A stretch of 64,000 nt of DNA from Clytia hemisphaerica. Lineage: Eukaryota > Cnidaria > Hydrozoa > Leptothecata > Clytiidae. Both the position numbers and the translations under genes were made by a program. The notes under the pieces are model-generated. The model saw only the letters and a list, made by a program, of their open reading frames with translations, did no database searches and had not been told where the DNA came from. This document shows positions 23,404-46,600 of the stretch, in pieces. Every line of letters begins with the position of its first letter. Positions within the stretch are counted from its first letter, which is position 1. The DNA lies in assembly GCA_902728285.1 (NCBI GenBank), contig CACVBU010000575.1, positions 321,298 through 385,297 on the forward strand, given 5' to 3'.

Positions 23404-23601
23404 AGTATAGAAAGCTTAAAATTTTGCGATGTGAGAAATAGTTACTTTTTTCAGCTATTTTTCTTAATAGTTGCTTTAATTTGGTAAGAAAGCAAGCAGC
23501 TTTACATTTTGATTATTATTTTTTAATCAATGACAGGGAGTACATCGAGCGCAGTAGAAAGATTTTTCGTAAATTCTTTTTTTATGCAAATTGAATGAGA
23601 G

Positions 23602-24449
23602 CAAGGACACTTGTATAGCGTAGCTGGACTGAGTACAACGGCTATTTCTCTTTCTCTTTTTAACACATGTCTGTCGTAGCGAATCCGCGAACCCCGGTCA
23701 GCGGTTGAGAATATTTTTTTCAAATTAATTGAAATAATTAGTTGTTGCAAAGTTTATTAGTTTTCATAAAGGACTTTTTTGCAAGATTTTATATTTGACT
23801 TTATCCTGAATGGAGATTTTTAGAATAAAATATAAGTTTGATCAATTTATAAGCCAAAAACCTTGAAAAAAGGGTCCTTCGAAAAAGTTAAATTGTAAAT
23901 TACGTAAGTTATTTCAAGGTGTAACAAATATTTTTAAACAACTCTTAGAAGGTTGAAGTTGAAAATGACGAACAAAAATGAGTAGTAAAAAATAGCCTAA
24001 ACTCGCCTAAACTTTCACCAAAGTACCCAAATCTTATAATGGCTATAGCAAGATGTCGAACAAGGAACGGAATACATCATACTACAGCTGCTAAAAGAAA
24101 AATCTAAACATCATTCATGAGAAAGAAAATTTTCTCTTTTTTAATGATTTGATTGTATAAAGGCGTGATAAAACTCATTATAAAGTAATTGTTCGATTGT
24201 TGTTTTCTTGTTATTGCAATCATGTCAAAGGAATTTCATAAAATATCTTTCCGTGCAAAATCCATCTTTCTGACGATGGTTTTTCATTGTGAAGTACTTT
24301 TATTAAAAAGTATTTCTGATTGGTTGAAAAAACATGAGGAACGACCTCTTATTGGTCAAAGAAAGACAATATCTATTATTACGACGACACACATGGTTCA
24401 AAGAAAATAAATTTGTGCTCAGTCCAGCTACGCTATTCAAGTGTCCTTG
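23602..24449. mobile_element. 848-bp TIR element
   Basis: Inverted ends CAAGGACACTTG, extending about 38 bp through ATAGCGTAGCTGGACTGAG, are flanked by ATGAGAG on both sides (23595-23601, 24450-24456). The interior shows no recognisable protein. A 7- to 8-bp duplication suggests a hAT-like origin. Confidence 0.8.
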
Positions 24450-24456
24450 ATGAGAG

Positions 24457-27453
24457 AACTGAAATTTTTAGCTTAGTAAATGATACAATGTCACTTATTA
24501 TTGTACAAAAATGTTCGTATTATCGGCGTGTAACGCAACTTTTGGTACAATAACATTTAGATCCATTCCTAGCACCGGAAATCTCCATTCTTATCTGGGC
24601 ATAGACTTTATTCTTTAGTAACTACTAGCCGGTTCCTGTCGTCGCAAACGCCGGTTTAGCTTATGCATTAAAAGTCATAAAGATGGTAGTGTTGAATTAG
24701 TTTTCATCAACGGCGGGTTGCATCGTTAGATTTCTCGTAAATACCTTTTGTTTTTCAAATGGGATGAGAGATAGGAGAAATCTTCACCATAAAAATGAGC
24801 TTAGTAAATAAGAAACAATCAATTCTAGAGTTTTTTCAGGAAGTTTCAAGGTGATTTATTGACACTTAACCGGCGTTAGCTTTAACTAACCTTTTGTTTT
24901 CTAACGGCTTTAAATGCGCAAGCAAAATCTCGGTGTTTGAAACGACCTCAATTGAATACTAGTCAAACTTCTGTCTCTAATCAAGAATTTATTATAGACA
25001 CTGGATAACCAACGAGCTATATTTTCATTGATTTCTCATGTTCTAGCCTAGTCCGCAGTAATGACATTATTGTTTACTCTCCTTCCTTCATTAAACGATT
25101 TTTCGTAACATTTTAATCGTCTTTTTTTAACTTAACACAGTCATTTCAATTCCCAAATGAAAATTTTCAAAATTTAACCTTAATAAAACCACCGATCCAC
25201 CACGAGCCTCCAAAATATTTTCATACCACGGTGAAGCCAAGACACTCAAGTCTCATATATGTCGATTTTAGCTCTTCTCGGAAAGATGTTGTAATGCTCT
25301 AATCTCTGTTCCTGAAAATGGGAACTTAGCCGAATACATTTTAAAAGATCAAATTGAGAGCGGGAATTATATCATCAGTGTATAAGAATGGAAAAAAAAA
25401 AAATATAAAAGATATCGCTCTTTTTACGGAGTTGAGGTCGATATAACGCGCCTAATAATAAATACCCAACTACAACCAGGTCAGCGTGTTTCAAACACAC
25501 TGTTGGCGACCGCTTCAAAAAAAGGATAGAACTTTCTAGTGTAGTATGTGTCACAGAAAAATTTCTTCACTTTATGCACTTTTTCCAACCTCATGACAGT
25601 TTTGCTTTAGATATGATTGCAAAATCGATTCTCACGCCATCAAAATCAACCTAACGTCAGCTGGAGAAACAATTTTTAGTCATTTCCGGTCTGCTGGCAA
25701 GGTGCTGAGCATTCATTACATTGAAGCGAAAAAACTTGATCGACGCTAGCAAGGTCTGTAGATAGGCAATTATACGCTTTCTCCAGTAAAAAATAAAATG
25801 AAGCAATAATTTGACTTTTCGTGCTGATCGATAGGATCCAATTAAGTAGAAGCCGAAGGCTAGAACCGTTTGGTAGGATTTGAAGCCAACAAATCTTGCA
25901 AATCGGCCCGCCTGGTTTTTACACAAATGCCAGATTTGAAAATAAATTTACTGCCAAAATTCCTACCAAGGAAGTCACTGACAACAATTCGAATTAAATG
26001 TTAAATTCCTTGGAACCCTTGAAACACCCTTGAAAAGTCAATATTATTTTGGGGACCCTTGAAATGCCAAATTTTGTGGCCATTTTCAACCATTTTAACT
26101 TTCAGATATACAGAATTTTTCCCATTGCGTAGGATACAAACATCGCAGTGACTTAAAAAAAAACATACTATTGGAACCCCTTAGACTCAAGGGGACATTC
26201 CACGCTCATCCTTAGGGGTTTATCTTTTAACCCGTGTTGGAATTATATGAGATTGGCAGGTCTGGGTGATAGAATGGGTAGCTGTAAAGTTAACCATTAT
26301 CAGCCAATTTAAGGAAAGAAGTGCTTGCTGCCATGGAAGTATTTTCCCAGGAATGACAAAAGAGCAAAAAATCCCTTTTTGTATTTTTAACAATAAAAAA
26401 ATTAAAAAGGGGGCGACTCAAAGTTGGGGGGTTACTTTAGAATTCTAAATTTTTTGGGGGTACCTGAACCCTGGAGTACCCTATGAGACCCCCTGGGAAA
26501 CCTTTGACCGGAGTCCAAATCAAAAAGTTTGATTTGAACATACTCGATTTGAACGAATGGATTTAAAAAGAATGTTCTATGATTCTAATTTAATTGAAAT
26601 TTAACGAGGTCAATGCTTTACTGTAAGCTGTAGGTGGATTTTTTTACCAGGGCTTGAAATTAGGCCATTTTTGGGGCGGATATGACTGGGTTACTGACAC
26701 AGGGGTGTTCGTAGCGCCATATGTAGCAATCATTAGGCGAAACTTTCGACTTTGGGTCGTCTTGTTTATGTTTGTTAAAGGTCAAGTCTGAAAATTAAGA
26801 ATACATTAAGAATATTTCATCCTCAATTTCGACAATTTCTTAAGAATACTTTACCCTCAGCCAAAGTTCTTATAAAAAAAAGCACTCGTGGGAATGTCAA
26901 AAGTGATAGAATCTGAATAAAAAGACATTAAATTTCTAATATGTATATTGATAGATAATAGCTTTCTTGTGATAAATTAAAAAACCTTGCTATAATAAGC
27001 ACAACACCCCCAAAATCTTAGGAGTCGTTGCTCGTATCTATCTATAAAATTGGGTTACATATTTTACGATTGAGCTACAACCTTTTCCCGTTTAGACCTG
27101 AATATTTTACATACACTTTCAAAGAAAATCGATGTAAGCCTTAATATACCCAAAACGTTGGGACAAAAATGCATCTTTATTATTCAGCGTTCCATTGGTC
27201 AAAGTCGCATTATAAAAAGGACTATTCGCTAAAGTAATTCAAAATCTTTCTGTTCTTTTAAAAAGTTCTTATTTGATTTTTTTTCTTCCAATGATGGTAT
27301 ATCAAAGGAAAGCCACCTTCAATAGATTTTCAAAAAATTTGAACTACCGTTTAGGTACCGTTTTTTTTTCTCCACCCATATTTATTAAAATGTATTCAAA
27401 TATAATTTGCAATGGGAACAAGAATGTCTGTAAATTTTGATAGTCAAATATAA
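24457..27453. other. Gene-free stretch
   Basis: No exon or protein similarity recognised on either strand. A fragment of the AGCCCGAAGGGCTA MITE is at 25848-25965. The rest is AT-rich single-copy-looking sequence. Confidence 0.5.
25848..25965. mobile_element. Fragment of AGCCCGAAGGGCTA MITE
   Basis: AGCCGAAGGCTAGA, then TTGGTAGGATTTGAAGCCAA and GCCCGCCTGGTTTTTACACA, match in inverted order the middle and right part of the copy at 60055-60339 (AAAAACCAGGCGAGCC, then GGTAGGATTTGTTGGCTTCA). Confidence 0.65.
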
Positions 27454-27455
27454 TA

Positions 27456-27865
27456 CTTTAGGCGTACAAACTTTCGCGAGGACGAAAAATCGCGAAATTC
27501 ACGGTATTTACTTTCGCGAATTTAACGGAAAAATATTTTTCGTGAGCATAAACTTTCGTGAATAAAGACGTAAAATTGAGAATTTTCACATGAAAAAATG
27601 GCCTAGAGGGACAAATACTTGTTGGGTTGGCTTGAAACATTTGTTCTTTGACTTTTTTCAGCAGGCTAAAAAGTGCCATAAAAGTTACATTTTATTCCAA
27701 GTTTGAAGTTTTACAGATTTTCTATTTTGTCAAGAATCTTTCGCGAGCATAAACTTTCGCGAATGGCCCGTTCCTAGAATTTTTTAAGACATTTACTTTC
27801 GCGAAAAGGGCCAAAATTCGCGAAAATCGCAAAGTTTCTGCTCGCGAAAGTTTGTACGCCTAAAG
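27456..27865. mobile_element. 410-bp Tc1/mariner-like MITE rich in TTTCGCGA
   Basis: Perfect terminal inverted repeats of 25 bp (CTTTAGGCGTACAAAC, then TTTCGCGAG) are flanked by TA on both sides. The interior repeats AAACTTTCGCGA and ATTCGCGAAA in both orientations, so the whole element can fold back. Confidence 0.9.
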
Positions 27866-28508
27866 TAGTCGAAATCTTTCTGCTTGTTTTAGTGAATCAA
27901 AAGCGCTACTCTTCTGTGCTTAATTGTAGGGGGGGGGGGGGTCACTTTGCAAATTGGAAAAAAATTACCCCATAGCTTTTTATAATGACCCACCCCCCAT
28001 TTTATGAAACTTTCCTTCATTTTCCTAAGGTTTTTTGGGAAAATCACTTAATAATGACCCCCATTCTGTGATTTTTCTTCCGGAGTACCCCCCCTGCTTA
28101 TTCCACCCACCTACAATTGAAAACAGAAGAGTAAATTTGAATGTATCTTTGGTCGAAAATTTCACGATTTTTAGTGGTTAAGAAGGTGGTCAAATTTCAA
28201 GGCAGTTTTTTGTTAAAGTTTCAAGGAACACGAGGCTGAAATTTGGCCAAAACCTAAGACTTGTCGATTTCTTGAAATAACCACATAGCCATTTCTGTCT
28301 CAGCTGCAAATTATTTTGAGATACACTTTAATACACGGGTTTCGAATTAGCACTGTTATGATTCTGTGTAATTTGCACGAAAAAAAAAGTAAATAAACTT
28401 CTGATTAGATATGATAAAAAATTATAAATATCTTACAATACAGCACTGGGTTGGGTAGATCAAATTATCATATTAAAGCTACTGGATAATGTCACTGTTG
28501 TTACTTAC

Positions 28509-29759
28509 ACAATTGAAAAGTCCTGAAGCGGCATTTCTTACAATTTCCGTCAGATAAAAATCAGCTTTATCTCCGTTCTCTAAATGTTTTGCATTGAAGA
28601 CTCGAAACATATTTTCTTTTGATTCTCCAACATAAGTCTATACTTCCTGTGTTTAACCCATTTCTCCACCATCTCCATTTTCAGATCTTTCATTTCCAAA
28701 TCATCCATTTCCTTTCTAGCAGAAACGTTCTTTGAAAGACTTGCGTACTCGTCAAAAAGAAGTTTACAAATGTATTTTTCATCTATATCAACCAGGTTCG
28801 TACCCATCTCACGAATTAACACAAAAAGAATGGTTTTTCTAATAGAATCGATTGGAATTCAAGGATTGAATCAGGAATCGAACTTTCTGAATGAATAGCA
28901 GCACTGTATGATGTATGATGTAAGAGGTGTTTTTTGGTTGTTGAGACTATTTGGAATCCTTTTTCTTCGCTTGCTGATGGTAGATTTCGGTCGATCATTT
29001 TGGCACCCTTTGCAAAAGCAAGATGTACCGCATTTAGTTCCTCTCTTTACACAGGAGCATTTCTTCAGCTTACTAGTATCAATTTCCAAGCAATGACTAG
29101 AACCTTCCTGTTTACTGTTTCTGCCACACCTACAACTTGTAGGCTCATTTGAGTTGCTTACCAAACAAGTAAATTCTTTTTCCTTCGGACCACACCATAC
29201 ATAGCACACATGTGGTATTGCTACACCTTGCCTCGGGGTAATGGGTAAGAACGGCATTCCAAAAAACATGCTGGTATCAACACGATCATGATGCCTAAAG
29301 AATTGGCCAATGCTTCTGGAAAATTGCATTCTTCGGTTTCTGAATCTATCTCATAATCATCACAATTAAAATTTACTTCTTCTGATATCGCTGTCAAAAG
29401 TTTGGATACAATATCATTGATTCCGGTTTCTTTTGTTATCCCGATACTCCGGAGAAACGATAAATAGCTTTCTGGCATTTCAAAGTAATGAAGAAGATCC
29501 AGGAGTTGATATCCAATCGCCTCGACGAAAGTTCCGGATTTCTTAGACTCCGAAAGATTAAGCGATTTTAAAATTGACCCAAGTGGGAAGGAGTCATCGA
29601 TTGAATGCTTCTTCAAAAAATCTCTCGGATGCCAAATATCTGCAGGGATTGAAGCATACCCTTTTGTTCCGAACATTCGATATAGTAAGTCGGAATCCAT
29701 TTTGGACTTGATTTGTTTGAATTGATTTGCAATGTTGATGATGCGTCTAGTTCTTGCAG
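28509..29759 (-). pseudogene. Frame-broken last exon: OTU-like region, CXC zinc-binding tail, C-terminal helix
   Basis: Continues the transposase gene from an acceptor at 29760-29761, in phase with exon 3. The first frame (29759 to about 29267) resembles a degenerate OTU-like fold, with EAIGYQLLDLL and ALANSLGIMIVL. At a run of six A (29261-29266; T on the coding strand) the reading must shift by one base to continue as MPFLPITPRQGV. It then runs into a cysteine-rich block (CRCGRN, KKCSCVKRGTKCGTSCFCKG), a CXC/tesmin-like zinc motif. Two or three further one-base shifts are needed (near 28930-28990, 28820 and 28620) to reach a stretch ending before a good GTAAGT donor at 28508. The shifts mean decay, or base-calling errors in homopolymers. 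Confidence 0.65.
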
Positions 29760-29932
29760 CTAGAATAGAGTTAAGCACAAACATTTGTTATGAATCCGAG
29801 AAAAAACTAATCCTCATCTCATCGTAAGCTCCTTTACCAAGCCATGGGCGCAAGACAGAAATCTCTGCAACAAGGGGGTCCAAATTTATAATGTAGAAAG
29901 GAAAAGGGTATAGTATTGTGTTTCACACTTAC

Positions 29933-32632
29933 GTAAGGCTTGAGTTAGATTGTAGGCATCGTGGTCTGCATGTTCAGATATGGCTAGATTATCATCCATT
30001 AAGGATTCAATTTCGAAGGGTTTGTCAAAGTCCACATTGTTATTTAAAGGCATATCGGATATTCCTATCGGCTGATGATCTTTACCGGCGAATTTCCAAA
30101 TTGGCTGAACGTGTTTTATTTTGACGGCTTTTCCATTTCTGTCGACGGTTTTTTTCTTCTCGTTATGGTAGTAGAAAATAGAGTTGAACAATGCATTTGC
30201 AGTATCAATACCGAGTCTATTCCTTGGCAAAATTATTCTCATTTGTCTGTGTAAGTTCTCGTTTTTGTTTGTTCCATGACCTGAAATATAAAATATATTT
30301 GAAATATTATTGTATTAAAAAAGCCAGATTGACATTGTTTTTTTAGTTCTGAATCGCTGCTTCAAAGACGCTGAGTTTACATAAAGATTGCAGTTATTCA
30401 ACCAATGACCAAAACAAAAGATAGCGCGCGACGTAACTTAATACACCCCTGTCTCTAGGCTACACACATCCCCTCTGATAAGTTTTGATATATCAAAACT
30501 AATTTGGGGATGCATGCAGCCTACCCCGTCTCAGTCCCACAGTGGAACTTTTTCTTAAAGGTGAGAATGAATATTTATCAATCCAATAATCCTCTCTTAG
30601 ACACCTCTAAAACTAGACTTAGATTGAATGAGTTATGCACCAATGATATCTTAATGAGTCTCTGCAAAATAATTGAAGCGTTGCAAGCTCATGGTTCTTC
30701 AGTACTCATTTAATCCTTAAGCCAACTTTAAGAACGAAGCGTATGCTACCTTAAGCCTACTGTAAGAACAAAACTTATGCTACCTTTTGTTTTTTTTGTA
30801 AATAAATATCAACATCTAGTATTTTAAATTCAATCTACGAGGGTTTGAAATTGATAGCTTGAATAGAGCGCTCTACGTCGAAATTACCTACTGATTCGTA
30901 GAAACTAGAATGAGATTGCTCCAATATAACTGGAAATAAACCCATATATAGAAGACATTTAAGCAAATATAGTCAATCTAAAAGCATGTATTAAAAAAGA
31001 AAAACTTACCAACAGGAATTCCTGATAAACAGCCCAGCAACACATGTACTTTTAAATTTTCCCACTTCATAAAAAAGCTTTCCTGCAAGATCTTCCATCC
31101 TTTATAGCTAACGGTGTTCCAATTTTTGATGAATCTTTCCATGTTTTCAATTATTTGGGTTGGGTTTGGTGTGGGCATAGTCCTTTCTTCACCAGTATCA
31201 TTCTTATCTCTGAAAACAAGTGTCAATTGGTTGCAAAGGTCCTTGCAAAATGGATGTCGTTTGCTAATGGTTTTTGTTAATCTTTGGACAGCATGGAATA
31301 GATCAAGTTTCACCTAAAAAGATAATGAATGAATTTGATTTAAATGAGCTTTTTAAAATTTTTTCGGTTACCAGAAAAAGCTCAATTAAAAAACTAAATA
31401 TGCTTGAAAACTTTGGACAATTTACAAACACTTTATACTGTTGCTTCTTTAGCCCTTGCAGGACACATGAAATTTTATGGGCCCTAGTGAGAATCATGCT
31501 ATAACCCTTCAGCTTATAAAGCTTATCGAGGGTGGTAAGATTTCTTACCATCCGTAGCTAATAGGTTCTGACAAAAACTTTCCTCAGTAAGATGTTTACT
31601 TGTCAAGATTGAAGTCAATAGAAAAATGGTAAGGTAAATACTGTAAGTAATGAACAAAGTACTAACTATTGCTGAAGGAAAATATTCAGCCAGTTTGGAT
31701 TTCCACATACAGCAGTTATCTAAGTATATGTACTTAATGTTTTGACATCGAGCTGCCAAGTTACCAAATATATCTGACACTTGCTCAAAAGCAGTCCCTT
31801 TGCACAGCTTATATCCAAGAACTTGTCCGTTTTCATTGAGAAAGAGAAATATAGAGTCGACCAATTTGATCCAACGTTTGTTTTCATCGAGAAACCCAAT
31901 ATTGGTTGCAACTTTAAACGTATGGTCACAGCTTAAAAATTCACAATCGATTTCATTCATTTTTCTATCATAGATGTCTTTGTATGTGTTGTACTGATGC
32001 AGAAAACATCCACGTAAAAATTGTTCAGATGGCGGCGACTTTATCACTTCCTCTGCTGCCTTGTCACTACAATCTGATATAAGGACACTTTTGCGATAAT
32101 ATTTATCAAATACACCTTCTGTGTATATTTTTTGTGTTGCAGAAAATGAATTTCCATGGTCAACCAGACGATTAACCAGATCAAACGCCTCTACTGTAAG
32201 ACCACTATCATGGCTCAAATAAAACGGTACTTCAGTCACTGGATTTAACTGGCGAAGAATGCCAGCATGGTAAGATGTGACAGAATGGCTATTATTACAC
32301 CTGTATCGCCTGCCTACTAATCCCATGTACCAATTTATATCCCATATTGTTCTTGGCATCATAGAATTGGAGCTACAATTTTCCCAGCCTTCAAGTGGAT
32401 TATCTGGACGGCGTAATGGTACATTCTGATTTCCATCTTGGTGACAGAGAGGGCAAAGCAAAGTTCTACATGGCTGCTCAATTGGATCCCAAAAAAGCAA
32501 CACAGGTAAAACAACTTCATTGATTGTTCTTTCATCAACAAGATCCAAACAGTTATATTTAGCAAGATGATGACATTTACCAGCATTTATAACTTGATTG
32601 ACAATTTCCATACATTTTTCATTCAATTTCAT
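29933..32632 (-). CDS. DDE-type transposase of a large DNA transposon, exons 1-3
   Basis: Three exons in phase (32632-31667, 31313-31010, 30280-29933), 539 codons. An acceptor just upstream (about 32651) implies a 5' untranslated exon. The N-terminal part has LLCPLC (Cys60, Cys63) and a later RYRC and H, like the zinc-ribbon region (DUF6729-type) that precedes transposases in many invertebrate proteins. Likely catalytic residues are Asp236 in LSCDHTFKV, Asp305 in YIYLDNCC and Glu431 in GTNKNENLHR. KLDLFHAVQR follows the second Asp, as in this family. The superfamily name is uncertain; the pattern is one I recall from cnidarian and fish genomes as uncharacterised proteins. The gene lies downstream of, and in the same orientation as, the P-loop ATPase gene. 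Confidence 0.75.
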
Positions 32633-33317
32633 TTTTTTATTTCTTTATCTAAAGAGATTAAAAATCATTATTAGCTAAAATACCTATGTAATTTGTTCAC
32701 TCAGATACAGGAAAAAAAGAAATGTACAAAAGAGATTTCATACTTTTTGACATGTTGAATTTATCGCAAATGGTAGTAGAAAGCACCTTAACTTAAAAAA
32801 AATTTTTTTGAATCAATTGTAAATCATTTTGCTATTTTTTGCAAGGCTTGTAGAAAAGAATTTTATACTAAATTGGAAAGTTAGTATAGGAAAAAATTGA
32901 ACAAAAAGAAAAAATTTTCCCGTAAAATATAAAACCAAAGATTTGATAAGAGTAAGATTTCTTGGTACCTTTTAAAGGTCGGTTTTCACTGCAGTAAAAG
33001 AGTAAGCTGGTATAATAACCAAAATAGAACTAAATCTTGAACCACAGTGAGAAAACCAGCCTCCAGAAATATTTACAGGTTAAAAGGTTTAAAAAATAAA
33101 CAAAAGGATAAATTTACTAAAAAAGAATGGGCTGTTACATTACATATTTATCCGGAGGTGGGGATGGAAGAAATTTTTCAAGAAAAAACCTGAAAGTGAT
33201 TGTGGACAAACCAACATAAGTCTTAGATGCCCAGAAATGCAGAAATTTTTGTCTACTCCTGCTATAAAATGAAATGGCCTAATTCATTTTCCTAGAATAT
33301 AAACAATAGAATTCCTA

Positions 33318-33612
33318 TTTTTCTTGTGGTATGAAAAAAATATGTTTGAAATGTTAGTCTTATTTACAGGTTAAAAATTTAAACAAAAGAAATGTTTCGT
33401 TTTTCTCATGGATTAAAATATATTTGATGTTAGTCTTATTTACAGGTTAAAAATTTAAATAAAAGAAATGTTTCATTTTCATGTGGTATGAAAAAAATAT
33501 GTTTAAAATGTTAGTCTTATTTACAGGTTAAAAATTTAAACAAAAGAAATGTTTCGTTTTTCTCGTGGATTAAAAATATATTTGATGTTAGTCTTATTTA
33601 CAGGTTAAAAAA
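33318..33612. repeat. Tandem repeat between the two transposon genes
   Basis: Four copies of a unit of about 78 bp containing GTTAGTCTTATTTACAGG, TTAAAAATTTAAA and AAAGAAATGTTTC. Units 1 and 3 resemble each other, as do 2 and 4, so a dimeric unit of about 157 bp was probably duplicated. A diverged piece lies near 33070. Confidence 0.85.
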
Positions 33613-33699
33613 TACAACAAAATAAATCCTAAAAGTCTTCTTTTCCTTTTGAAACAATGGTTTTTCTTGTTTGCAATCCAAACTTTCTCTGTACATCCA

Positions 33700-36600
33700 T
33701 CATCTGCGATTGCCATTTTGTGGTTTGAATTTGGCGGACAAGGTATCAGTTAGACTCTCTAACTCTAAAAATAAAATAAGACAAGAGCACTTAACTAACC
33801 TGTAATAAAAGAAGACTGGTGCTTAAAGAAAAAAAATAAACCATCTGTTCTGCAATGATCATTAGAATCAGTTAATGCAATATGTCAAAAATCATGCTTA
33901 AATAAAATACATAATACCTCTCCCCAAATACCTATGGGGGTAGGGAATGGTGAAGATTTTGAAATATAAAAACATATTTAGGAGTTGGGTTTATGAGAAA
34001 TTTTAGGTGGGGACGACATTTTAACAGATCGGGTTGTCAAGAAAGTCAAAAGGTATAATCCAGATTAAAGGTTCATTTTTTCTACCATCTCTCTTCAGTT
34101 TGTCATGAAAACTTTGAACCAAGAGCTTTAAGATATAAAAAGATTTAGGTAGGGGTTGTCAAATAAGGTAAGTGTTGGGCTGATAATAGATTTCATTTGG
34201 GGGACCACTTTTGAAGGGGTGTTGCCCACTATGATAAACTGCACATGTTAAAATCTTACCACTTGCAAATTTTCTCTTTCTAACAATCCTTTTCCCGTTA
34301 GGGTCGTTTTGTGTAGAAGCCTTACTGATTCTTTCCACAATCTCATCTTTTCTTATCTCTATCTCATCTTCGATATCAGATTTATCTGTCACATCTTGAA
34401 AATCTAAAAATGCATTATGCAGAAAAATAGGTCATTGTAATTTTATGATAATAATTGTACATTTTTGGAAATAGGTTCATGAAAGAGAGGCTCTAAAATA
34501 AACAAACAAAATACTCTTAATGATAAAAATAATACTTACCAACATCTTCATCATCAAAACCACCACATCTGGCACGAGATCCACTACAACAACCTGCTCC
34601 ATCAGAATTGTCAAAATCGTCTGCTGATATTACTGAGAAAAAAAAATAGTACATACATACAGACTGACATTCTCAGAATCTAGCTCAACTGAAGGTGAGA
34701 ATAATTCTTATTTTTCGTCTTTCTTATTTTTAAAATAAAGAAAAATCTGAATGAGGGAAAAGTAGCTACATCTGCCTCTACATTGTAATTGACTTAAGGG
34801 TTTGTTAAGGCATCATAAAGCCATTACTTAAACAAAGTTCACCAGTTTTACAAAGTTTTACTTTTACTTTTCAAGTCAAAAAAACTTAAAATTGCAAGGT
34901 ACTTGATAACTGTTACCTCTTTGCCCACTGAAAAAGTATGTAAATAGGATCGTCTCACTAGGGGGTTATTTATAGCAGGTTTGATTATTTAGGGGGGGTT
35001 CCAGACCCTAGGAAACTATGCACTTTAAAGTGGAAGTACAGAAATTGCAATTCTTGCCCAATCTTTAATCATATATCTAAACAAATACATCACACAACAA
35101 ATATTAATGTGATTGGGTTCACCTATTCTCCAGCAAGAATTATTTTTAAAAATCTTGGTAAATAAAAATTTATTTGGCGGGAGTTGGCGGGAGTTAACTT
35201 TTGCAAATGACAAATTTGACAACATTTCAAGAGATTAACTTTCGCAAATGGCAACCTTTGGCATTTTTAGCTTAGCTTAATATTTGAGAATTGGGCAAGA
35301 AATAACAAACTCAATAAAGTTTCTTCCTTTAAAGTAGGATGGATCAGAGAAGTATTTTGACAGACATGAAAATTTTCAAATACCTTTAGTATATTGTTGT
35401 TTGTTTGTGTTTGTTTGCGTTTCAACTTTTGAATTAATGTCCACTTTCGGGTCAGCAATAATTGATTTTTTTGTTGTTGCTTGTGTTTCTGACTTGGACT
35501 GGTTTTTTTTATTTCGAGCATATTTTTCTTTACTGATTGCTTTCTCTCTGGATTTTCCATTTTTGCGGGCTTGAGCTTTTGCCTCTAACAGCTCTTTGAC
35601 TATGAAGAATTTTAGAGAAGAGGTAGAAGTCATTCAAAATTATTGATGCAAATTATAATAATTAAGCTGACAAGAGTAAGAGTTTAAAATATGGGACAGA
35701 CTGCAGGCTACATCATTTGAAAATTTCAGACGTGTGGTCAATCACACTCTTAAAACCTTAATTTTAGTAATTTAGGCTGTGATAAGGAGTGCTATGCACA
35801 ACTTTCAGTTGTGAAACTTACTTTACGGGGTGTGATTGATCACACTCCTCAGTCCAAAACTGGTGTCTTACCTTAGAGCAGAGTAAATTGATAAATGAAA
35901 TTCCTAGTAAATTCAAAGATTCTAAATCAAGAACATACAAATATCTCAAGATGATAGATAACTAACATTACCTCCAATTAAGTCCTCCTTTGCTTCATCT
36001 GGGAATGATTGAATAGGAACAGGATGTGTTCTTTGTTTTTTGTCAGGAAAGTGAAGTGGGTTAGTTTCATTATTCAAATGGCGTCCTTTTAAGTTTGAAT
36101 CCATGTATTCCCTTGTAAATGGAGAATCTGCTATGTTTACTCGAATACATATGCAATCGTTTGTGAATTTAATCAGGTATTCAATCTAAATAAAGATAGA
36201 TGACTGTGAATTTGCCCTTCAGAGTTCTAGAACTTTTACCTTTCTCTGGCTTAATCCTGAAAAATGAAACTTAATCCCAAAAGCTAAATTTCCCCAATCT
36301 AAAACAGACCCAGCTGACAATTAAAGGACCAATTTACCTCGTCAGCTTTATTCTTAACCAATTGATCAACATATGAGTGAATTTTGTTAAAAAACTCGTC
36401 ATCAACTTCATAATCATTTTCTGCATTGCTTTGTTGTCCACATTGACTCTTTTTCGATCCTTTTGTTTGGAAAACCTAATGAAAGTCAAACAAAGTATTC
36501 TTTTATTAAGGTCAAACCTAAAAGTTAGGCTTCAGGGAAATAGTAAATTGTTTAAAACAATTGAAGAATTGATTAAAAAAATTGAAGTTTTGGTTTTCCC

Positions 36601-39600
36601 AGCCAAAGTTCACCATTCTTAATAGGGCTAAAATACAAGTAGATGTACTGTCCAGCAGACTCACAACCTGTAGGAAATCACCTTGTTCAAAATGTCTCTT
36701 TGTTGTGAAAAATAATCTACGATGTCTTTTCCGATTTGTAATGTTGAAGAGTTGATTTGAAGGGGGATATCATCCTTTGATAGCACCATGTTTTCTTCTT
36801 GTTCTTCAACTAGAAACTTATTCAATGTTGAAATAAGAATGTGAAGGGAGAGAGTAATCCTAAAAAGGTAAGAGAATATAAAAATAAAAATTACTCTAGC
36901 ATGGCGTCCTCCAGCTTTTTGGTCTCCCCCTAAAATGAGCTAAAATCCCCCATCTGGCCTTTTCCCCCCACCTGTCTTTAAAATTCGTGCTCACCCCAAT
37001 TGGGAAACCCCCTAGCCGTATTGTATAAGGGTTGCGAAGTGATGATCCAGACTCGGCTCAATTCGCAAGCTACTATAGCAAAAAAAAGACTCTCAAAATC
37101 CCTAGAAAGACAGGCTCATAAGCCTGAATGCCCAAACACACCAGGAAGGTCTGTATTTATCCTATTACTCCCCCCACTAGGTAGAGGACTGAATATAATA
37201 CAAACATTGACTAAGCTAAACGATTTGTAATGATTTTTGTATATTATCGATTAAGCCATGATAGACTTCAGTTTCCACACATGTATGAGTGAGGTCTCAA
37301 AGTAGTTTTCAGCTAATTCAAATTATCAGACAATTTCCAACTTTTGTTTTAGAGGAAAGGTAAGGTTGATGCCATAAATCCAAGATTCTGAGTAAAGTTT
37401 ATGATGGGGGTAAAAATTTACTGAAGTTTTAATACCTAACAAGATTACGTTTTTCCTTGCTTGAATTTGTATCATTAAGCTCATTTGAATTCCAGACCGA
37501 ATTGCATTGATCAACCATTTCATCTGATATCTCATTGTACAATACTTTTGCTGCCGGATCAAAAGAGTAGTTGTGTTCTTCCTCTTTGTGATATTCGAAC
37601 ACTTGCTCGTAGATTGCTATTGGAAATATTGTGCAATAAAATCAGGATTGAAGTTTGTACAGCCCCAAGATGTGACCCCTGCTCTAAGATGTGACTTGAT
37701 TGCCCCAAGATGTGTGACTTGAGAAGTTTAAAAATGTCCCATGTTGATAAAATAAACAAGTAAATAGCGATCCTAGAAAAATATCTTTTTTTCAACTTCT
37801 TATTTACTGGAAGTCAATTGGAACTAGTATTATGCTAAAAGAACAACGACTTACTGTGAAAATTTTGGATAGGATAATCGTCCAACTTTCTATCATAGCT
37901 ATCCAACTCACTTGCTTTTAAAAGCTTTGGTTGAATACTACAAACCAATAACCGATCCGCAAATCCATCACGCAGCTTTGCTAGTGGGCGATATGCATTG
38001 ATAAACGGTTCTGGCTGAGCAAATCCATCAATGCAAAAGGTGTTGTGTCTCAACTCCTCTCTTTTTTCTTTGCCATCTTCGGCTCTTCCGCCAGAGGATG
38101 TCATTGACCAGAGGCTATTCCCATCATAGAGAGTGTTTAATCTGTTTCGCTCACCATACCCTTCTTGTTGCTTTCTCATTAGCGAATCGAAGAAATTTTG
38201 AAGCTCAGAGGAAGCAAGTAATCCTCTGCCTTTGTGAGATTTGAGGGACTCAAATAATCCCTTTTTGGTGTAGTCCTAGAAACAATTGACAAAAAAATAA
38301 AATGTAAGGGACTTTTGTAAGATTTGGAATTCCATATTGTGACCTTATTTCTTCCTCCCTTAAATTTTCTTTTCCTTTCTAAAGAACCTATTACTTTTTT
38401 TTGCTTTAGAGAATGCGATTTATCTTCCACAGGGCTGCAAATAAATATTTTTAGTCACTCAGACACCATGTCCGACTGAAATCAAATCATGTCGGTCAAA
38501 CTCAAATTACTGTTGGTCATTGAGGCCCGGAATCTTAGAGTTAGAAAACTATAATGTATATAGTTTTTTTTATAAGGAACTCGAGGCTGAAAATGGTCCA
38601 AAAAATACTCCAGGCTCAGAGCAAAGTTAAGGTTCCTTATAAAAAAAAATGTGTAAGTAAAGAACATCCAGTGTGGTAAAAAGTAATACACTCATGCTAG
38701 TCAAAATTTAAGCATCAAAATGTAGTTTTATGTGCCGGGTGCGCCACAAAAAAGTTTCTCTCTTTAAAACTAATTTTCTCGAAATCTAAAAATTTTAAAA
38801 GAACCATTCCTACTCCATTGGAACGAAGAAGGATAGACTTAAATTTTGATGGGTCATTTAATGAATTCGGTACATTAGATCGAAAGTTATGCTCAAGTGA
38901 ATAAAAAAGTTACTTTCTGAAAGTGCTTAAAAACGTTAAAAATTGACCTATCAAATTAAACAGAAGCATAATTACACGATGCACTAGTTTTTTTGCTTCA
39001 GCCATCAAAAATGATAATTAGCTGTCTAAATGACCTTTTGTTGTAAAAAGGAAGGTTGCATTACATTAAAAGGAAGAAAATTCGTCGAAAAAGCCAAAAA
39101 ATCTGGTAAAATTCATAAAAATACATCAAATATGGGTTTCGAGGTACACCCAGCCTTACATAGACTTTATCCAGTCTAGAACCAAAAATCTATGAAAAAT
39201 TTGGGTAAAAACTAAATTAAAATGATTTTGATGAAGATTTTAAAAACCCTTTCGAACCATCAGTTTCAAAATTTATGTGTTTAATTACTGAAAAATGCTC
39301 TTGATCGTGTAAAGGCTATTTATTTTAAAATAAAAATTTGATAGGTCGATTTGTAACGTTTTCGGGCACTTTCTGAAAGTAACTTTTTTATTCAATTGAG
39401 CATAACTTTTGATCTAAAGAACCGAATTAGATAAATGACCCCTTAAAAATTTAAGTTTATATTTCTTCTTTCCAATGGAATAGGCATGGTTCTTTTAAAA
39501 ATTTTATATTTCAAGCAAATCAGTTTCAAAGAGGGAAACTTTTTTGTGGCTAAGGCGGTCATCGAAAAAATGCTCTGTTCGCGTCGCAACGGGTGTTAAA

Positions 39601-40830
39601 AATGCATGCGGGCGGACGGGCGGTCAAAAACATTCCCGGGTTTTTTTAATCACGGCAGTAACTCAGGGGCGGGTGGTAACGCGAACAAAACAATTGGTCG
39701 TCGGAGCAATTGAGAAAAAAGCTATACTTTAAAAGAACAAATTGCTTTTCCTAGATTTTTTTCCGCATCTCCGCACTGGAAAATTAGCGGAAAATTTGAT
39801 GCGGGCGGGTGATGCAAATAGAACAATTTTTCAATGACCGCCTAACTCGAAAACTCGTGAACGAAAAATAAATTCCGAGTTAGCTAACTTGAAAAAAGGT
39901 TTTGTGAAAAAGAAATTAGAGTTGGCTAACTCAATAAGGTTTTTTCTAAAAATGAAATTCGAGTTGATTGATCCTAACTGGAAAATCCTTTTTTGAAAAT
40001 GAAAAATCGAGTTAGAGTTGATAGACGTCATAATTTGCACTTTTATGACGTCATAATTTAGCAAACTCAAAAATTGCTAACTCAAAGATTCCAGGCCTCT
40101 TGGTCATTCCGCCTATATTTTTTCTAAAATCACAATAACTTTTCAGCTAGCGGAACATTTTCTCTATTTTTTACCTTCAATAAGAAGCTAGCTTTTTTTT
40201 AATTGTGAGTGATAAAAGCAACCTTTAATTGTCCATTACAATAACGGAGAAAGTCAATAATAGTGATCTTAGAAATAAGCACGCTTCTCATAGGTATTTT
40301 TGTGGACTTTCAGGTCAATCGAAACACAGAAACATGACCTTTCACATGATCTGTTCCAGACCAGGGTTTTTATACAGACTATTATCTTAGTTAAGTTGAA
40401 ATATAATGAAAGAACCAAGTCAAAGAATGACACATACCTGAACAGTCAAACTTTTGAGAAGATCATTTTCTTGTTCAAGCAATGGGTCTTCTACAGCCAG
40501 TGTGAAGGCATTGCTCTTGCCGGAACCAGGTTCAGACAAAATGATGACAAACAAGCCTGAAGACTCAGTGTACGCCTTTCTTGGATGCTTCACATTCAAA
40601 TTATTTGAACCTTCCCTGACAATTACTTTGGTTGTTGGCCCGAGAATTGAATTTAAGGCTGGGAGGCAAGACAAAAGAACAAATTCTGGCCGGGTATTTC
40701 TTGACCAAGCCATTGCTTCCAACCACTCCTTGATATTGTTTGGAATTGATTCCATTGGAAAATGTACTGCACGTGCCTCAGTGATCACTGTTTTTAAAGT
40801 GTTTGTGTCCAAGTTTCCGTACAGCATCAT
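33700..40830 (-). CDS. P-loop ATPase resembling DUF3987 (primase/helicase-like), multi-exon
   Basis: Exons: 40830-40438, [one or more unlocated], 38434-38344, 38275-37855, 37616-37436, 36859-36682, 36475-36338, 36185-35972, 35599-35384, 34632-34540, 34403-34260, 33764-33700 (stop TGA). All located junctions keep phase except between the first two, where an exon of length 3n+2 must be missing from 38435-40437. Exon 1 has IKEWLEAMAWSRNTRPEF and a Walker A loop SEPGSGKS (residues 99-106; the usual first Gly is Ser). The third located exon has RGLLASSELQNFF (Walker B-like) and DGFADRLLVCS, both in DUF3987 order. The C-terminal third (exons from 36185 on) is acidic and lysine-rich. DUF3987 is mostly known from bacteria, phages and plasmids. 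Here it sits upstream of a DDE transposase, suggesting a two-gene mobile element. No function is proven. Confidence 0.72.
38564..38649. mobile_element. Short AT-rich palindromic MITE
   Basis: 86 bp with inverted ends of eight to nine T followed by ATAAGGAAC, and an inner TCGAGGCTGA/CAGGCTCAGA inverted pair. It lies in the large intron of the DUF3987-like gene. Confidence 0.6.
38743..39550. mobile_element. Foldback element with 220-bp inverted arms
   Basis: The left arm (38743 to about 38962) and right arm (about 39330-39550) are inverted copies at roughly 85% by eye. Landmarks are CCACAAAAAAGTTTC, AAAAGTTATGCTCAA, AAAAAAGTTACTTTC and GACCTATCAAATT. The loop of about 370 bp has no recognisable gene. 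It is placed in the intron where one exon of the DUF3987-like gene could not be found. Confidence 0.85.
39554..39842. mobile_element. PIF/Harbinger-like MITE
   Basis: 289 bp with inverted ends GGCGGTCATCGAAAAA (left) and GGCGGTCATTGAAAAA (right, complement), flanked by TAA on both sides (39551-39553, 39843-39845). Three-base TWA targets are typical of PIF/Harbinger. The interior has several CGGGCGG blocks. Confidence 0.78.
39843..40090. repeat. Degenerate tandem repeat (GAGTTAGCTAACT type)
   Basis: Four or five imperfect copies of a unit of about 55 bp built on CGAGTTAGCTAACTTG followed by AAAA and TTTTTGAAAA, bounded by GCTAACTC motifs. Confidence 0.55.
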
Positions 40831-41299
40831 GAATTTTTTTTGTCTATGACAGAGTTAATAACAAAAATTATTCTGACAGTCAAATAAATCACAAATCAAA
40901 ACAGCATGTTTAAGAAATGATATTATTTATATTTATGAAAAGGAAGAAGCACATCATATTTAACTGTAAAGTTCATCATGTTATTTCTTTCAAGATCCCC
41001 ATTAAATGTTGATCTTCATGTTGATTTTGACTTTTAATTTTCTTTCACTATGCTATGGATTCATTCGATCCCCACAACAGCCCAACGAATTTTAAATTTT
41101 CAACCCACGAGGTCGGATATCCACGAGGTCGAATTGAAAAAAAAATTTCGCGCGCTTCGCGCATGCGTATGCAAATAAATTATGAAATCGGGGGAAAATC
41201 GGGAGAAAATCGGGAAATCGGACCGAGAAACAAACCGCGCGGGCGGGCGGAAATAATTGCACCCGAAAGGGAGATTCTCCCGCCCGTGCGTTATTCAAA

Positions 41300-42838
41300 T
41301 ACACATACTACATATACACTACACATGCATATACATTGGAACATTGGAACATGGAACGACGGCACATATGGTACACATACTACATATACACTACACATGC
41401 ATATACATATACATTGGAACATTGGAACATGGAACGACGGCACATATGGTACACATACTACATATACACTACACATGCATATACATTGGAACATTGGAAC
41501 ATGGAACGACGGCACATATGGTACACATACTACATATACACTACACATGCATATACATTGGAACATTGGAACATGGAACGACGGCACATATGGTACACAT
41601 ACTACATAACACTACTACATACACACACATATACACACATGCATATACATTGGAACATTGGAACATGGAACGACGGTCACATATGGTACACATACTACAT
41701 ATACACTACACATGCATATACATTGGAACATTGGAACATGGAACGACGGCACATATGGGACACATACTACATATACACTACACATGAATATACATTGGAA
41801 CATTGGAACATGGAACGACGGCACATATGGTACACATACTACATATACACTACACATGAATATACATTGGAACATTGGAACATGGAACGACGGCACATAT
41901 GGTACACATACTACATATACACTACACATGCATATACATTGGAACATTGGAACATGGAACGACGGCACATATGGTACACATACTACATATACACTACACA
42001 TGCATATACATTGGAACATTGGAACATGGAACGACGGCACATATGGTACACATACTACATATACACTACACATGCATATACATTGGAACATTGGAACATG
42101 GAACGACGGCACATATGGTACACATACTACATATACACTACACATGCATATACATTGGAACATTGGAACATGGAACGACGGCACATATGGTACACATACT
42201 ACATACACTACGCATGCATATATTGGAACATTGGAACATGGAACGACGGCACATATGGTACACATACTACATATACACTACACATGCATATACATTGGAA
42301 CATTGGAACATGGAACGACGGCACATATGGTACACATACTACATATACACTACACATGCATATACATTGGAACATGGAACGACGGCACACATGGTACACA
42401 GACTACATAACAACACATGGAACATTGGAACATGGAACATGGAACGACGGCACATATGGTACACATACTACATATACACTACACATGCATATACTACATT
42501 GGAACATTGGAACATGGAACGACGGCACATATGGTACACATACTACATATACACTACACATGCATATACATTGGAACATTGGAACATGGAACGACGGCAC
42601 ATATGGTACACATACTACATATACACTACACATGCATATACATTGGAACATTGGAACATGGAACGACGGCACATATGGCACACATACTACGTATACACTA
42701 CACATGCATATACATTGGAACATTGGAACATGGAACGACGGTACATATGGTACACATAATACATATACACTACACATGCATATACGTTGGAACATTGGAA
42801 CATGGAACAACGGCACATATGGTACACGTACTACATAA
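41300..42838. repeat. Tandem satellite array 2 (72-bp unit, about 21 copies)
   Basis: Same unit as array 1 but in reverse orientation: TTGGAACATTGGAACATGG, ACGACGGCACATATGG, ACACATACTACATATACAC, ACATGCATATACA. It is more uniform than array 1, mostly the 72-bp form, with rare shortened or scrambled units near 41600 and 42400. It lies about 470 bp upstream of the first located exon of the DUF3987-like gene. A TAGTA microsatellite and a stray TTGGAACATTGGAACA unit follow to 42912. Confidence 0.97.
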
Positions 42839-43609
42839 TAGATAGTATAGTATAGTATAGTACAGCATAGTATGGCATAGTATAGTAGTATTGGAACATT
42901 GGAACAAGTATTATAAATAGTATGGATTGAATTAGGAAAAACCAATTATACGCGACTTTCTATCCGTGTCCTGTGTGGCGGCCGCCTTAGAATTCCCGCC
43001 AAAATCTTTGATCCGCCTCTGCACTTGATGGCCATGGGTTTCCCGTATTTTCTAAAAGCGCGCCATTTTTAATATACCTTGAAAACAAAAAGTTGTAAAA
43101 GTAGTGACGAGCAAAATTTACATGTCTGGTCTGGATAAAATGTTTGGCTTGCCTATATTTTGCTTGAAAGAGAAATGTTAAGGCTGTCCCTTTACTTAGC
43201 TGGTATTTTGAATTGTATGTTAATGGTTAACTCTTTTTTTCATCTATTATGTATTAGAAAGTGCTAAAAAACAAAATGAGTTTTTTGATGATTATGCAGA
43301 TTTTTAAGTTTAGCTGCTGGTGTGAAAGATTTTATTCATGTTTTCCTAGGCATTGTACATTTTTCTTGATTTTTGAATATAGAATTTGAAGCCACTTTAA
43401 TATTCAGCTACTAGGGGACTTCTTTCAAAACTGAAAAACTAGCCCATTTGGCATTTGACATTTGAAAATAAAGATTTATTGCACGAAGTAGTGGGAGGAG
43501 GAGAGCGGTTTAAGCTACTGGCATCTTATATAGTCGACATTTAAAAGTTATGTTATAAATTCAGGGGGTAGGAGCTTAGTAAGTTTTTTGTAACAGAAGA
43601 ATATGCAGG
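42839..43609. other. Gene-free stretch with a short GC-rich block
   Basis: Contains a TAGTATAGTA microsatellite (42840-42892) and a GC-richer block at 42950-43030 with GCGGCCGC and several CpG. A similar CpG-rich patch at 41140-41295 lies on the other side of satellite array 2 and could be the promoter region of the DUF3987-like gene. Confidence 0.4.
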
Positions 43610-46600
43610 ACATATATTTTGAAAATCGTGCTCCGGAACCATGGAAGTAAGAACGAATACCGAATTATAACAAAACCTACCCGTATAACTGACACATCTT
43701 CAACATTAATCGATCTCGCCCTGACAAACAACAAGTCGAAAATCTCCCACGAAACCGTAATTCCCTTATCACTAAGTGATCATGATATGATTGGAGTTGT
43801 TCGGAAACGTAACCATCAAAGATATGAACCCAAAACCATCAAATGCCGAAACTTTTCGCGGTACAATCCTGATGCTATGAACAACGAACTTCGCCAAGTC
43901 GATTGGAATCTTGTATATCAACAGTCCGAACCAAATGCTGCTTGGAAATACTTCAAACAAATCGTGACTAACTCCTTCAATCGCCATGCCCCTGAAATAA
44001 CAAAACGCATCAAAGGTCGCCCATGTCCATGGCTCACCCAAGAAATCCGAGCACACCTGAACGATCGTGACAAAGCTGATCGAAAAGCAAGGCGAACGAA
44101 AGACGAAGGTGATCGAAATATCTATCGTCGTAAAAAGAACCGATGCACCAATCTCATCAAACAGGCGAAAAAAACAATTACCATAAAGAAATCCTCACCG
44201 AAAACCTCAAAAATAGTAAAAAGTTCTGGGGTCACATCAAAAAACTTTTACCATCTTCAAACGTAAAATCAAAACCAACTGACGTTCTCAAAGACGGTGA
44301 CGCAACCGCTACTAGCCCAAAAGACAAAGCCGATATGTTTTGTAATTATTACGCCAAAGTGGCACAGAATCTAAAGAAAAAAAATCAATGCCACTAAATA
44401 GACTTTGTCTGGAGACAAGCTAGACCCTTTCCCAACCGCACCGATAAGATTTTCAAGTTTTCAATGGTTGGAGAAGACCTGATATGTAAACTTCTTCAAG
44501 GACTCAAACGAAAGAAGGCTACCGGCATCGACCAACTTCCATCTAACCTGCTGAAAGATGCAGCTCCATCCATCTCCAAACCACTCGCACATATAATCAA
44601 TCTTTCGTTATCCACCTCAGCATTTCCGACCGAGTGGAAGGAAGCCAAAGTGACACCCTTATTCAAATCCGGAAAAATATCGTCTGTCGAAAATTATCGT
44701 CCAATCTCGATACTACCAGTCATTTCGAAAATAGCAGAGAAAATTGTCCAGATGCAGCTTACTGAATACCTGGAAGAGAATAATCTACTCACTGATTTCC
44801 AATTCGGTTATAGAAAGCACTCCTCCACGGAAATGGCTGCTAACCTCTTCATCGACGATATTCGAAAGCAAGTAGACAAAGGAAATGTTGCTGGCGCCCT
44901 GTTCCTCGATTTATCCAAGGCGTTCGACACAATCAGCCACGGTTCGCTACTGAAAAAACTACCGGCCTACGGGATCAGGACGACTGAGCTGAACTGGTTT
45001 CAAGACTACCTTTTCAATCGCCAACAATTTGTTTCGTATGATAAAGCCATGTCCCAACCGCAACCGGTCACCTGTGGCGTCCCCCAAGGAAGCATTCTTG
45101 GCCCACTTTTATTTCTTATATTTTTCAATGACTTTCCTGACTGTCTTGAGAATTGCAAAACGATCATGTTTGCAGACGACACAGTCATCTACACTGCGGC
45201 GAAAAGCTCCAAAGAAGTCAACGACATCCTAAACGCCGAACTCAACAACGTCCAACGCTTCATGACCGAGAACGAACTTATCGTTAACCTGAAAAAAGGA
45301 AAGACTGAGGGGATGTTGTTTTCCACCGCTAAGAAATTGCACGATTCTCCCAAACTGAATTTACTCTACGGTGAAACACCCATTAACAACGCTACCAGCT
45401 ACAAATATCTGGGAATTTTGATCGACCCAGAGCTTCGACTATCCGAACATTTTGAAAAAACAATTAAGATATCAACTTCACGTTTAAAGCTACTGACTTT
45501 AATTCGATCGAACGTAACTTCATTCGCAGCCTACCAAATATTTCGTGCTATGGTACAAACTATCATCCTTTACGGGTCATCCACCAACCTAAACCTCAAC
45601 AGATCTAGCATCGACCGCCTTGACAGTATCGATCGGAGGGCTAGAAGGATCATTAACAAACGGCAAATAGATCGCCATATTATCGAGCCGACATCGAATG
45701 TCATGAAGCGTCAAGCATGTTGCCTTGTGAAGAAATGTATGCTGGGTAAAGCAAGTGTGTTGCTGGCTAATCATTTCGAACAAAATAACCACGGTGTCAA
45801 TACACGAAACCAAAATGCTTTTATTCGTCTGCCCAAAATTCGTTTAGAAGTTGCCCGACGTGGATTCTTCTTTATGGGAGGAAGGTTGTACAATACGCTA
45901 CCAGTGGAATTGAGAACCGTAAATGACTTTAATATTTTTAAAAACAAAATAAAGTCTCATACTTTCAATTTTATTTAAGTATAGTGCCTCTGCTTAGCCT
46001 TTAACTTGCCACTACACTATCTCTTTTCTGGATAATAACATTTTGAATATGATAATTTCACTGTTTTTGGGTACTTTCTCCTTTTCAGAGTTTACACATT
46101 GCGTCACACTTTTCAGTATTAATATTCTCAGTCTCGACATACTGTATTAATAGACTTCACATACATGTATACTCTTAGTCTTGTTTACATTAATTTTAAG
46201 ATAACCTTTTGAAGTATCTATCGATCACAGCGTGGTTTTTCTGCGGGTATAACCTTTCATATTTAGTTTAATATATTCTCTATTAGTTCTATTTTATGTT
46301 TGCCTCAGTTATTTTTCATACTGTGTTATGCCTCGTGTTTTTCCTTACTATCATTTACTCATGCCTTTCCAACATTGGAAAGTACGTACACCTCTCAATC
46401 AAAACGAGATCTAACATCGTAATTTCTACTTTCATAGCGAATTTAACTCCTCATTCAAATAATTAATTTTCAAGTGCTTTTTCATAGCCAAATTCAATAC
46501 GTTCGTAAACTATGCCAGCATGCCTTTTATTTAACTTATAATTTATTTATTATTTTAGATTTATAACAGGACCAAAGGTAATATCAGATACTTGTAACTG

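Follow-up and report, generated by a model that had tools for sequence, protein, structure and literature searches.

A candidate two-gene DNA transposon of Clytia hemisphaerica that carries a DUF3987-type ATPase beside a DDE transposase

A region of about 21.7 kb in the genome of Clytia hemisphaerica is probably one two-gene DNA transposon of the cut-and-paste type, in which a DUF3987 ATPase gene and a gene for an IS256/ISL3/Mutator-related DDE transposase lie between composite inverted-repeat ends. The region belongs to a 64,000-nucleotide stretch of DNA (C401:321298-385297; hereafter the window), and all loci described here come from a single 417 Mb assembly of 951 contigs, in which the Wnt family has 39 matches, in keeping with an animal host. 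For animal cut-and-paste transposons, one transposase is usually thought to be enough. A dedicated ATPase would help to explain the movement of DNA transposons longer than 20 kb, and would give eukaryotic transposition an ATP-dependent step that can be tested.

Results

Boundaries and ends of the element

Comparison of the window with four other loci (C374, C926, C500 and C899) delimited a common block of ~21.7 kb at 21313-42965, a length that includes an 848-bp insertion described below. The block stops at window position 42965/42966 in C374, C500 and C899, and in C926 this terminus is found at the other arm. The outer 35 bases of this right terminus are identical in C374 and C500, carry 2 mismatches in C926 and are similar in C899. 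The DNA that flanks the window copy matches nothing in those four loci, and the same terminus sits in different flanks at other loci of the assembly. An earlier note on this DNA had placed a candidate element at 28509-40830; both of its genes do lie inside one element, but that element is wider, at approximately 21313-42965.

The ends combine a unique terminus, about 115-130 bp long, with arrays of 70-72 bp units in inverted orientation. The left arm (21313-23410, minus strand) was resolved by TRF into about 30 tandem copies of a ~70-bp unit, inverted relative to the array on the right. The right arm (41297-42837, plus strand) is built from tandem ~72-bp units and is followed by the right unique terminus (42838-42965, plus strand), which reads inward as GGATAGAAAGTCGCGTATAATTGG.... 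The outer unique left terminus is missing from the window copy; C374 retains one at 812632. When searched with up to 1 mismatch, the motif TTGGAACATTGGAACA occurs 51 times in the window, where 0 copies are expected: 30 minus-strand sites lie in the left array, 21 plus-strand sites lie at the right end (20 of the 21 in the array and one further site in the unique terminus) and 0 lie elsewhere. This array motif is probably a binding site for the transposase.

Several other features were mapped in or beside the element. The 848-bp insertion at 23602-24449, with ends CAAGGACACTTG...CAAGTGTCCTTG and flanked by ATGAGAG, is nested in the element and not a part of it; it is missing from C374 and C926, where the site is empty. 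The interval 24450-28500 has no frame longer than 96 aa, and a tandem repeat of ~81 bp lies between the two genes at 33319-33627. Just past the right end of the element, at 43583-45978 on the plus strand, lies a reverse-transcriptase-like frame of 526 aa in which FADDT was recognized by eye.

A pattern search of the assembly for the terminus found 11 sites, among them three pairs that face each other, in C374 (21.8 kb), C229 (9.3 kb) and C75 (4.75 kb). The C374 pair encloses both genes, with ATPase exon 1 falling in an N gap. The comparison of copies that the earlier note had proposed thus located the ends, and it recovered a target duplication in one of the three two-ended copies: C229 has a perfect 8-bp duplication, AAAATTTC, on both sides, and no matching 8-bp duplication was found at C75 or at C374, which has an internal N gap. 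Arrays are present at both ends of the shorter copies C229 and C75, and since paired termini and arrays flank these copies, the ends may suffice in cis. Among six terminus loci compared, five have the array (L033-L037). The sixth, L040 (C294), has only ~80 bp of the terminus, with the array of the 70-72 bp unit absent, and possibly belongs to a related family.

The ATPase gene

The upstream gene (33703-40830, minus strand) comprises 10 exons that encode ~680 aa, and its reading frame is open over all of them in the window. The exons have GT-AG borders and consistent phases, and both genes lie on the minus strand in the order first described. The Walker A P-loop SEPGSGKS is encoded by exon 1 and LLASSE by exon 2, both as first noticed, and the assignment to DUF3987 was confirmed with joined exons 1-5, which match the Pfam model (PF13148) at 1.5e-18 and score 67.6 bits where the cut-off is 27; taken singly, exons 1 and 2 match at 1.3e-3 and 1e-5, under the cut-off. 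A relative of this ATPase in C310 matches DUF3987 at 1.7e-15 and a phage DNA-helicase family at 3.3e-7. Searches of phage and plasmid records at E≤0.01 found no relative of the C310 protein, and a PADLOC comparison gave no relative at E≤0.1.

The possibility of a further exon between the first two was set aside, since the C310 relative is about equally compact in that interval. Within intron 1, similar inverted stretches at 38743-38957 and 39335-39550 (~87%), seen through C374, are probably another nested short element. The DUF3987 family is known mainly from bacteria and phages. It occurs beside primases in bacterial and archaeal mobile elements and is a predicted helicase because it replaces known helicases there, according to the available part of PMC5862659.

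The transposase gene

The downstream gene (28509-32632, minus strand) has 4 exons, at 32632-31667, 31313-31010, 30280-29933 and 29759-~28509, with the exon 1 donor at 31667 placed by reading the sequence. The same reading finds D236, D305, a D(2)H motif (DLFH) and E431 in this order. The three acidic residues had been singled out in the earlier note, and they are conserved in relatives: D236 is invariant in 4/4 aligned transposases (the window and three relatives), C310 retains both D305 and E431, C327 retains D305, and of the two C791 transposases both have D305 and one has E431. Within its last exon the window copy has a frame change, which is absent at that place in all three sisters compared (C374, C926 and C500); these sisters have breaks at other places.

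Joined exons 1-3 of the window transposase match DDE_Tnp_ISL3 (0.0012), ISL3 (0.0018), ISLre2 (0.002) and IS256 (0.0048). These four matches lie around D305, and each stays below its curated cut-off. For the C310 relative the values are 6.8e-7 with IS256 and 0.0017 with Transposase_mut, both under cut-offs, and none of the window-type transposases tested brings any transposase model to its cut-off. Judged from these weak matches and from the order of its motifs, the transposase looks related to the IS256/ISL3/Mutator-like DDE group, a likeness that we do not extend to membership. The Pfam KDZ model PF18758 gave no match at E≤1 with five exon pieces, and none with joined exons 1-3.

Two further parts had been proposed for this protein. 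The CXC part is retained in a reduced form, as a Cys-rich C-terminal tail that resembles MSL2-CXC weakly, at values short of the cut-off (0.048 for the window, 0.0039 for a relative), and has no match to the CxC-KDZ models. The OTU-like part was discarded, as neither a sister copy nor the C310 relative has a Pfam OTU match at E≤10. Structure prediction, also suggested in the earlier note, was carried out with AlphaFold2 and gave two poor models (mean pLDDT 44.9 and 59.0); Foldseek searches with these low-confidence models, which bear on an RNase H-like fold of the transposase core, returned no fold match at E≤0.001. Sequence searches of solved structures gave no credible match (best values 0.051 and 0.38, to unrelated names), and no relative of the transposase was found among viral contigs.

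Linkage of the two genes

Loci were counted as family copies if they had near-identical DNA, a terminus together with transposase remnants, or more than 80% protein identity, and seven qualify: the window (C401), C374, C926, C500, C899, C748 and C229. The ATPase gene adjoins the transposase gene, on the same strand and in the same order, in five of the seven (C401, C374, C500, C899 and C926); in C926, exons 5-10 of the ATPase are present and the rest falls in an N gap. The lack of linkage that would have spoken against a joint element is therefore not the usual state within the family, and this adjacency, together with the enclosure of both genes by termini in C374, supports the earlier proposal that they belong to one element. 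The ATPase was not detected in C748 and C229, nor in the 4.75-kb copy C75 with its two termini. C229 alone has the form that had been named as counter-evidence, namely transposase copies with ends that exclude the ATPase; its interior holds broken transposase remnants, and we read this 9.3-kb locus as a deleted copy.

Outside the family the association is looser. The transposase relatives in C327 and C300 are 66-70% identical, and no ATPase was found in the 9.3 kb read upstream of them or matched elsewhere on those contigs; genome search likewise detected no ATPase for the C788 relative. The partnership is therefore not obligate, given these more distant transposase relatives without an ATPase. 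At C791 a transposase has an ATPase relic 0.7 kb upstream, in the same order as in the window, and at C310 an ATPase and a transposase lie in tandem in the reverse order. A repetitive stretch near the C310 ATPase (L045:1-850; C310:5001-5853), seen as repetitive frames, and an 8-bp tandem array that precedes a C791 transposase on its upstream side (L042:6337 onward) indicate that arrays near window-type transposases may recur.

Divergence among copies

Between the window and C374, 0 substitutions were counted in 538 codons of the ATPase and 696 of the transposase, and 18 substitutions with 62 indel events in 15,385 alignment columns (pieces of fewer than 2,000 columns excluded). Because indel events so outnumber substitutions, some of the gene breaks may be assembly errors. 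Copies this similar suggest recent activity, and the question of what the ATPase does is for that reason open to experiment.

More diverged copies allowed dN/dS to be estimated by simple counts on alignable codons. For the ATPase, dN/dS is 0.23 against C500 (21 synonymous and 19 nonsynonymous substitutions in 641 codons; Fisher p 6e-6) and 0.40 against C899 (29 and 46 in 452 codons; Fisher p 3.3e-4). The transposase gave 0.50 against C500, which is not significant (5 synonymous, 10 nonsynonymous, 660 codons; p 0.20), and 0.17 against C899 (12 and 8 in 242 codons; p 1.4e-4). A synonymous excess is thus present in both comparisons of the ATPase and in one of the two comparisons of the transposase.

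DUF3987 genes beside KDZ and other transposases

Merging the results of three genome searches yielded 53 DUF3987-type loci, which were compared with 98 KDZ (Kyakuja-Dileera-Zisupton) loci and 62 loci of window-type transposases; rows at loci already listed were removed by hand, and the totals are lower bounds because the searches score only the best candidates. With uniform placement of loci assumed for the expected counts, 15/53 DUF3987 loci have a KDZ locus no more than 6 kb away, against 0.15 expected. All 15 pairs are head to head, with spacings of 1.6-4.3 kb, and they involve 15 of the 98 KDZ loci; independent pairing events are fewer than 15, since several pairs score equally and may derive from a single family. 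Window-type transposases lie within 12 kb of 6/53 DUF3987 loci, against 0.19 expected, all in tandem, with four of the six belonging to one family. Neither type of transposase is in reach of the other 32 DUF3987 loci. As a control, hAT domains were found near 2/53 DUF3987 loci within 6 kb and 3/53 within 12 kb, against 0.30 expected, and the comparison of 3/53 with 6/53 weakens linkage beyond the family as a strong independent proof.

Two side observations concern these loci. C500 has a second, different DUF3987 gene (C500:81413-82992, plus strand; L021:1413-2992), head to head with a frame on the minus strand (C500:80381-81228; L021:381-1228) that matches the KDZ-associated CxC5 at 1.7e-4, under the cut-off. 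Stop-free DUF3987 frames of 476-494 aa with near-equal scores occur at C250:1703879, C624:659748 and C700:902829, and a KDZ neighbour was detected only for the first.

Discussion

If the two genes and the composite ends function together, the transposase would bind the arrays at both ends of the element, and its D/D/E site would perform cleavage and strand transfer. The ATPase would be needed for transposition and may act as a DNA-translocating helicase or as an ATP-dependent assembly or target factor, taking the functional place of bacterial MuB, TnsC or IstB by analogy and not by homology. We regard the case for the ATPase as such an ATP-dependent partner of the transposase, whether helicase or target/assembly factor, as evenly balanced.

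The ATPase could instead be a passenger, captured by the ancestor of this one family and carried without a role in transposition. The relatives C327, C300 and C788 and the shorter copies C229 and C75, which bear the same ends, all without a detected ATPase, would fit such a history. We nonetheless consider it unlikely in view of the synonymous excess in the ATPase between copies, the ATPase relic near the C791 transposase, the ATPase beside the C310 transposase and the 15 uniformly head-to-head pairings of DUF3987 with KDZ loci; it keeps some weight because a captured gene may be selected for another benefit.

It is highly improbable that two unrelated mobile elements became nested by chance in one place and were afterwards copied together as a single block. 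Transposons do cluster, as the hAT domains near DUF3987 loci illustrate, but in C374 a single terminus pair encloses both genes, the same outer end recurs in copies with different flanks, and no site of the element's terminus, at up to 3 mismatches, lies between the two genes. Least probable of all, and barely credible to us, is that the region derives from an integrated virus or a virus-like replicon for which DUF3987 would serve as the replication helicase. The occurrence of DUF3987 beside primases in bacterial and archaeal mobile elements (PMC5862659, available part) would suit a replicon of this kind; against it, none of the seven gene-region frames scanned matches a family of capsids, polymerases or primases, the introns of both genes are of the spliceosome type, and the searches described above found neither a viral-contig relative of the transposase nor a phage or plasmid relative of the C310 ATPase. 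A single two-gene transposon accordingly remains our preferred reading of the region.

More tentatively, and with somewhat less than even confidence, we propose that eukaryotic DDE transposons recurrently have a DUF3987 ATPase as their second component, placed head to head where the transposase is of the KDZ kind and in tandem where it is IS256/ISL3/Mutator-like. If true, this would amount to ATPase-assisted DNA transposition in animals, with a logic comparable to that of Mu, Tn7 and IS21 but built on a replication-type helicase. In the available portion of PMC6431247, on giant transposons, KDZ/Zisupton is absent and an ATPase is named for other element types only; the word 'ATPase' is absent from the corresponding portion of PMC12730594, on KDZ, and 'DUF3987' from those of PMC9926710 and PMC12062965. 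The six papers found to join DUF3987 with transposition concern bacteria, phages and bacterial or archaeal mobile elements, to judge by their titles, and a literature search gave no paper combining DUF3987 with KDZ. Among the matches listed, no paper treats such an ATPase-transposase pairing, and an earlier mention is possible.

In Tn7, Mu and IS21, a DDE transposase works with a dedicated ATPase. These systems are bacterial and their ATPases belong to families other than DUF3987, which makes the comparison one of analogy only. The transposases of IS256, ISL3 and MULEs have D, D, C/D(2)H and E in order, and their target duplications are about 8-11 bp. The window element resembles them in its weak ISL3, ISLre2 and IS256 matches around D305, the stronger IS256 match of the C310 relative, a D(2)H motif recognized by eye and an 8-bp duplication in one of three two-ended copies; it differs in being 21.7 kb long, in having inverted repeats made of arrays, a CXC-like tail and an ATPase partner, and it reaches no curated cut-off. 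Ginger and Helentron are examples of OTU-bearing transposons, from which the element is set apart by the lack of a Pfam OTU match in the sister copy and C310 relative tested.

As described in the available portion of PMC12730594, Zisupton makes 8-bp duplications and KDZ transposons have TET/JBP partners. The 8-bp length of the one duplication found, at C229, and the adjacency of DUF3987 genes to KDZ loci in the same genome are points of likeness, whereas the window transposase has no Pfam KDZ match and the genes of the element are in tandem, unlike the head-to-head KDZ-DUF3987 pairs. Galileo, of the P superfamily, shares with the window element long inverted repeats with internal repeats, and has multiple transposase-binding sites in them; its transposase is a different one, and the opening of the abstracts mentions no ATPase partner (PMC3573991, PMC3688188). 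The primase-DUF3987 proteins of bacterial and archaeal mobile elements belong to the same ATPase family as the window protein and are predicted helicases, on the available text of PMC5862659; they are fused to a primase, whereas the window ATPase is encoded by a stand-alone, spliced gene beside a transposase.
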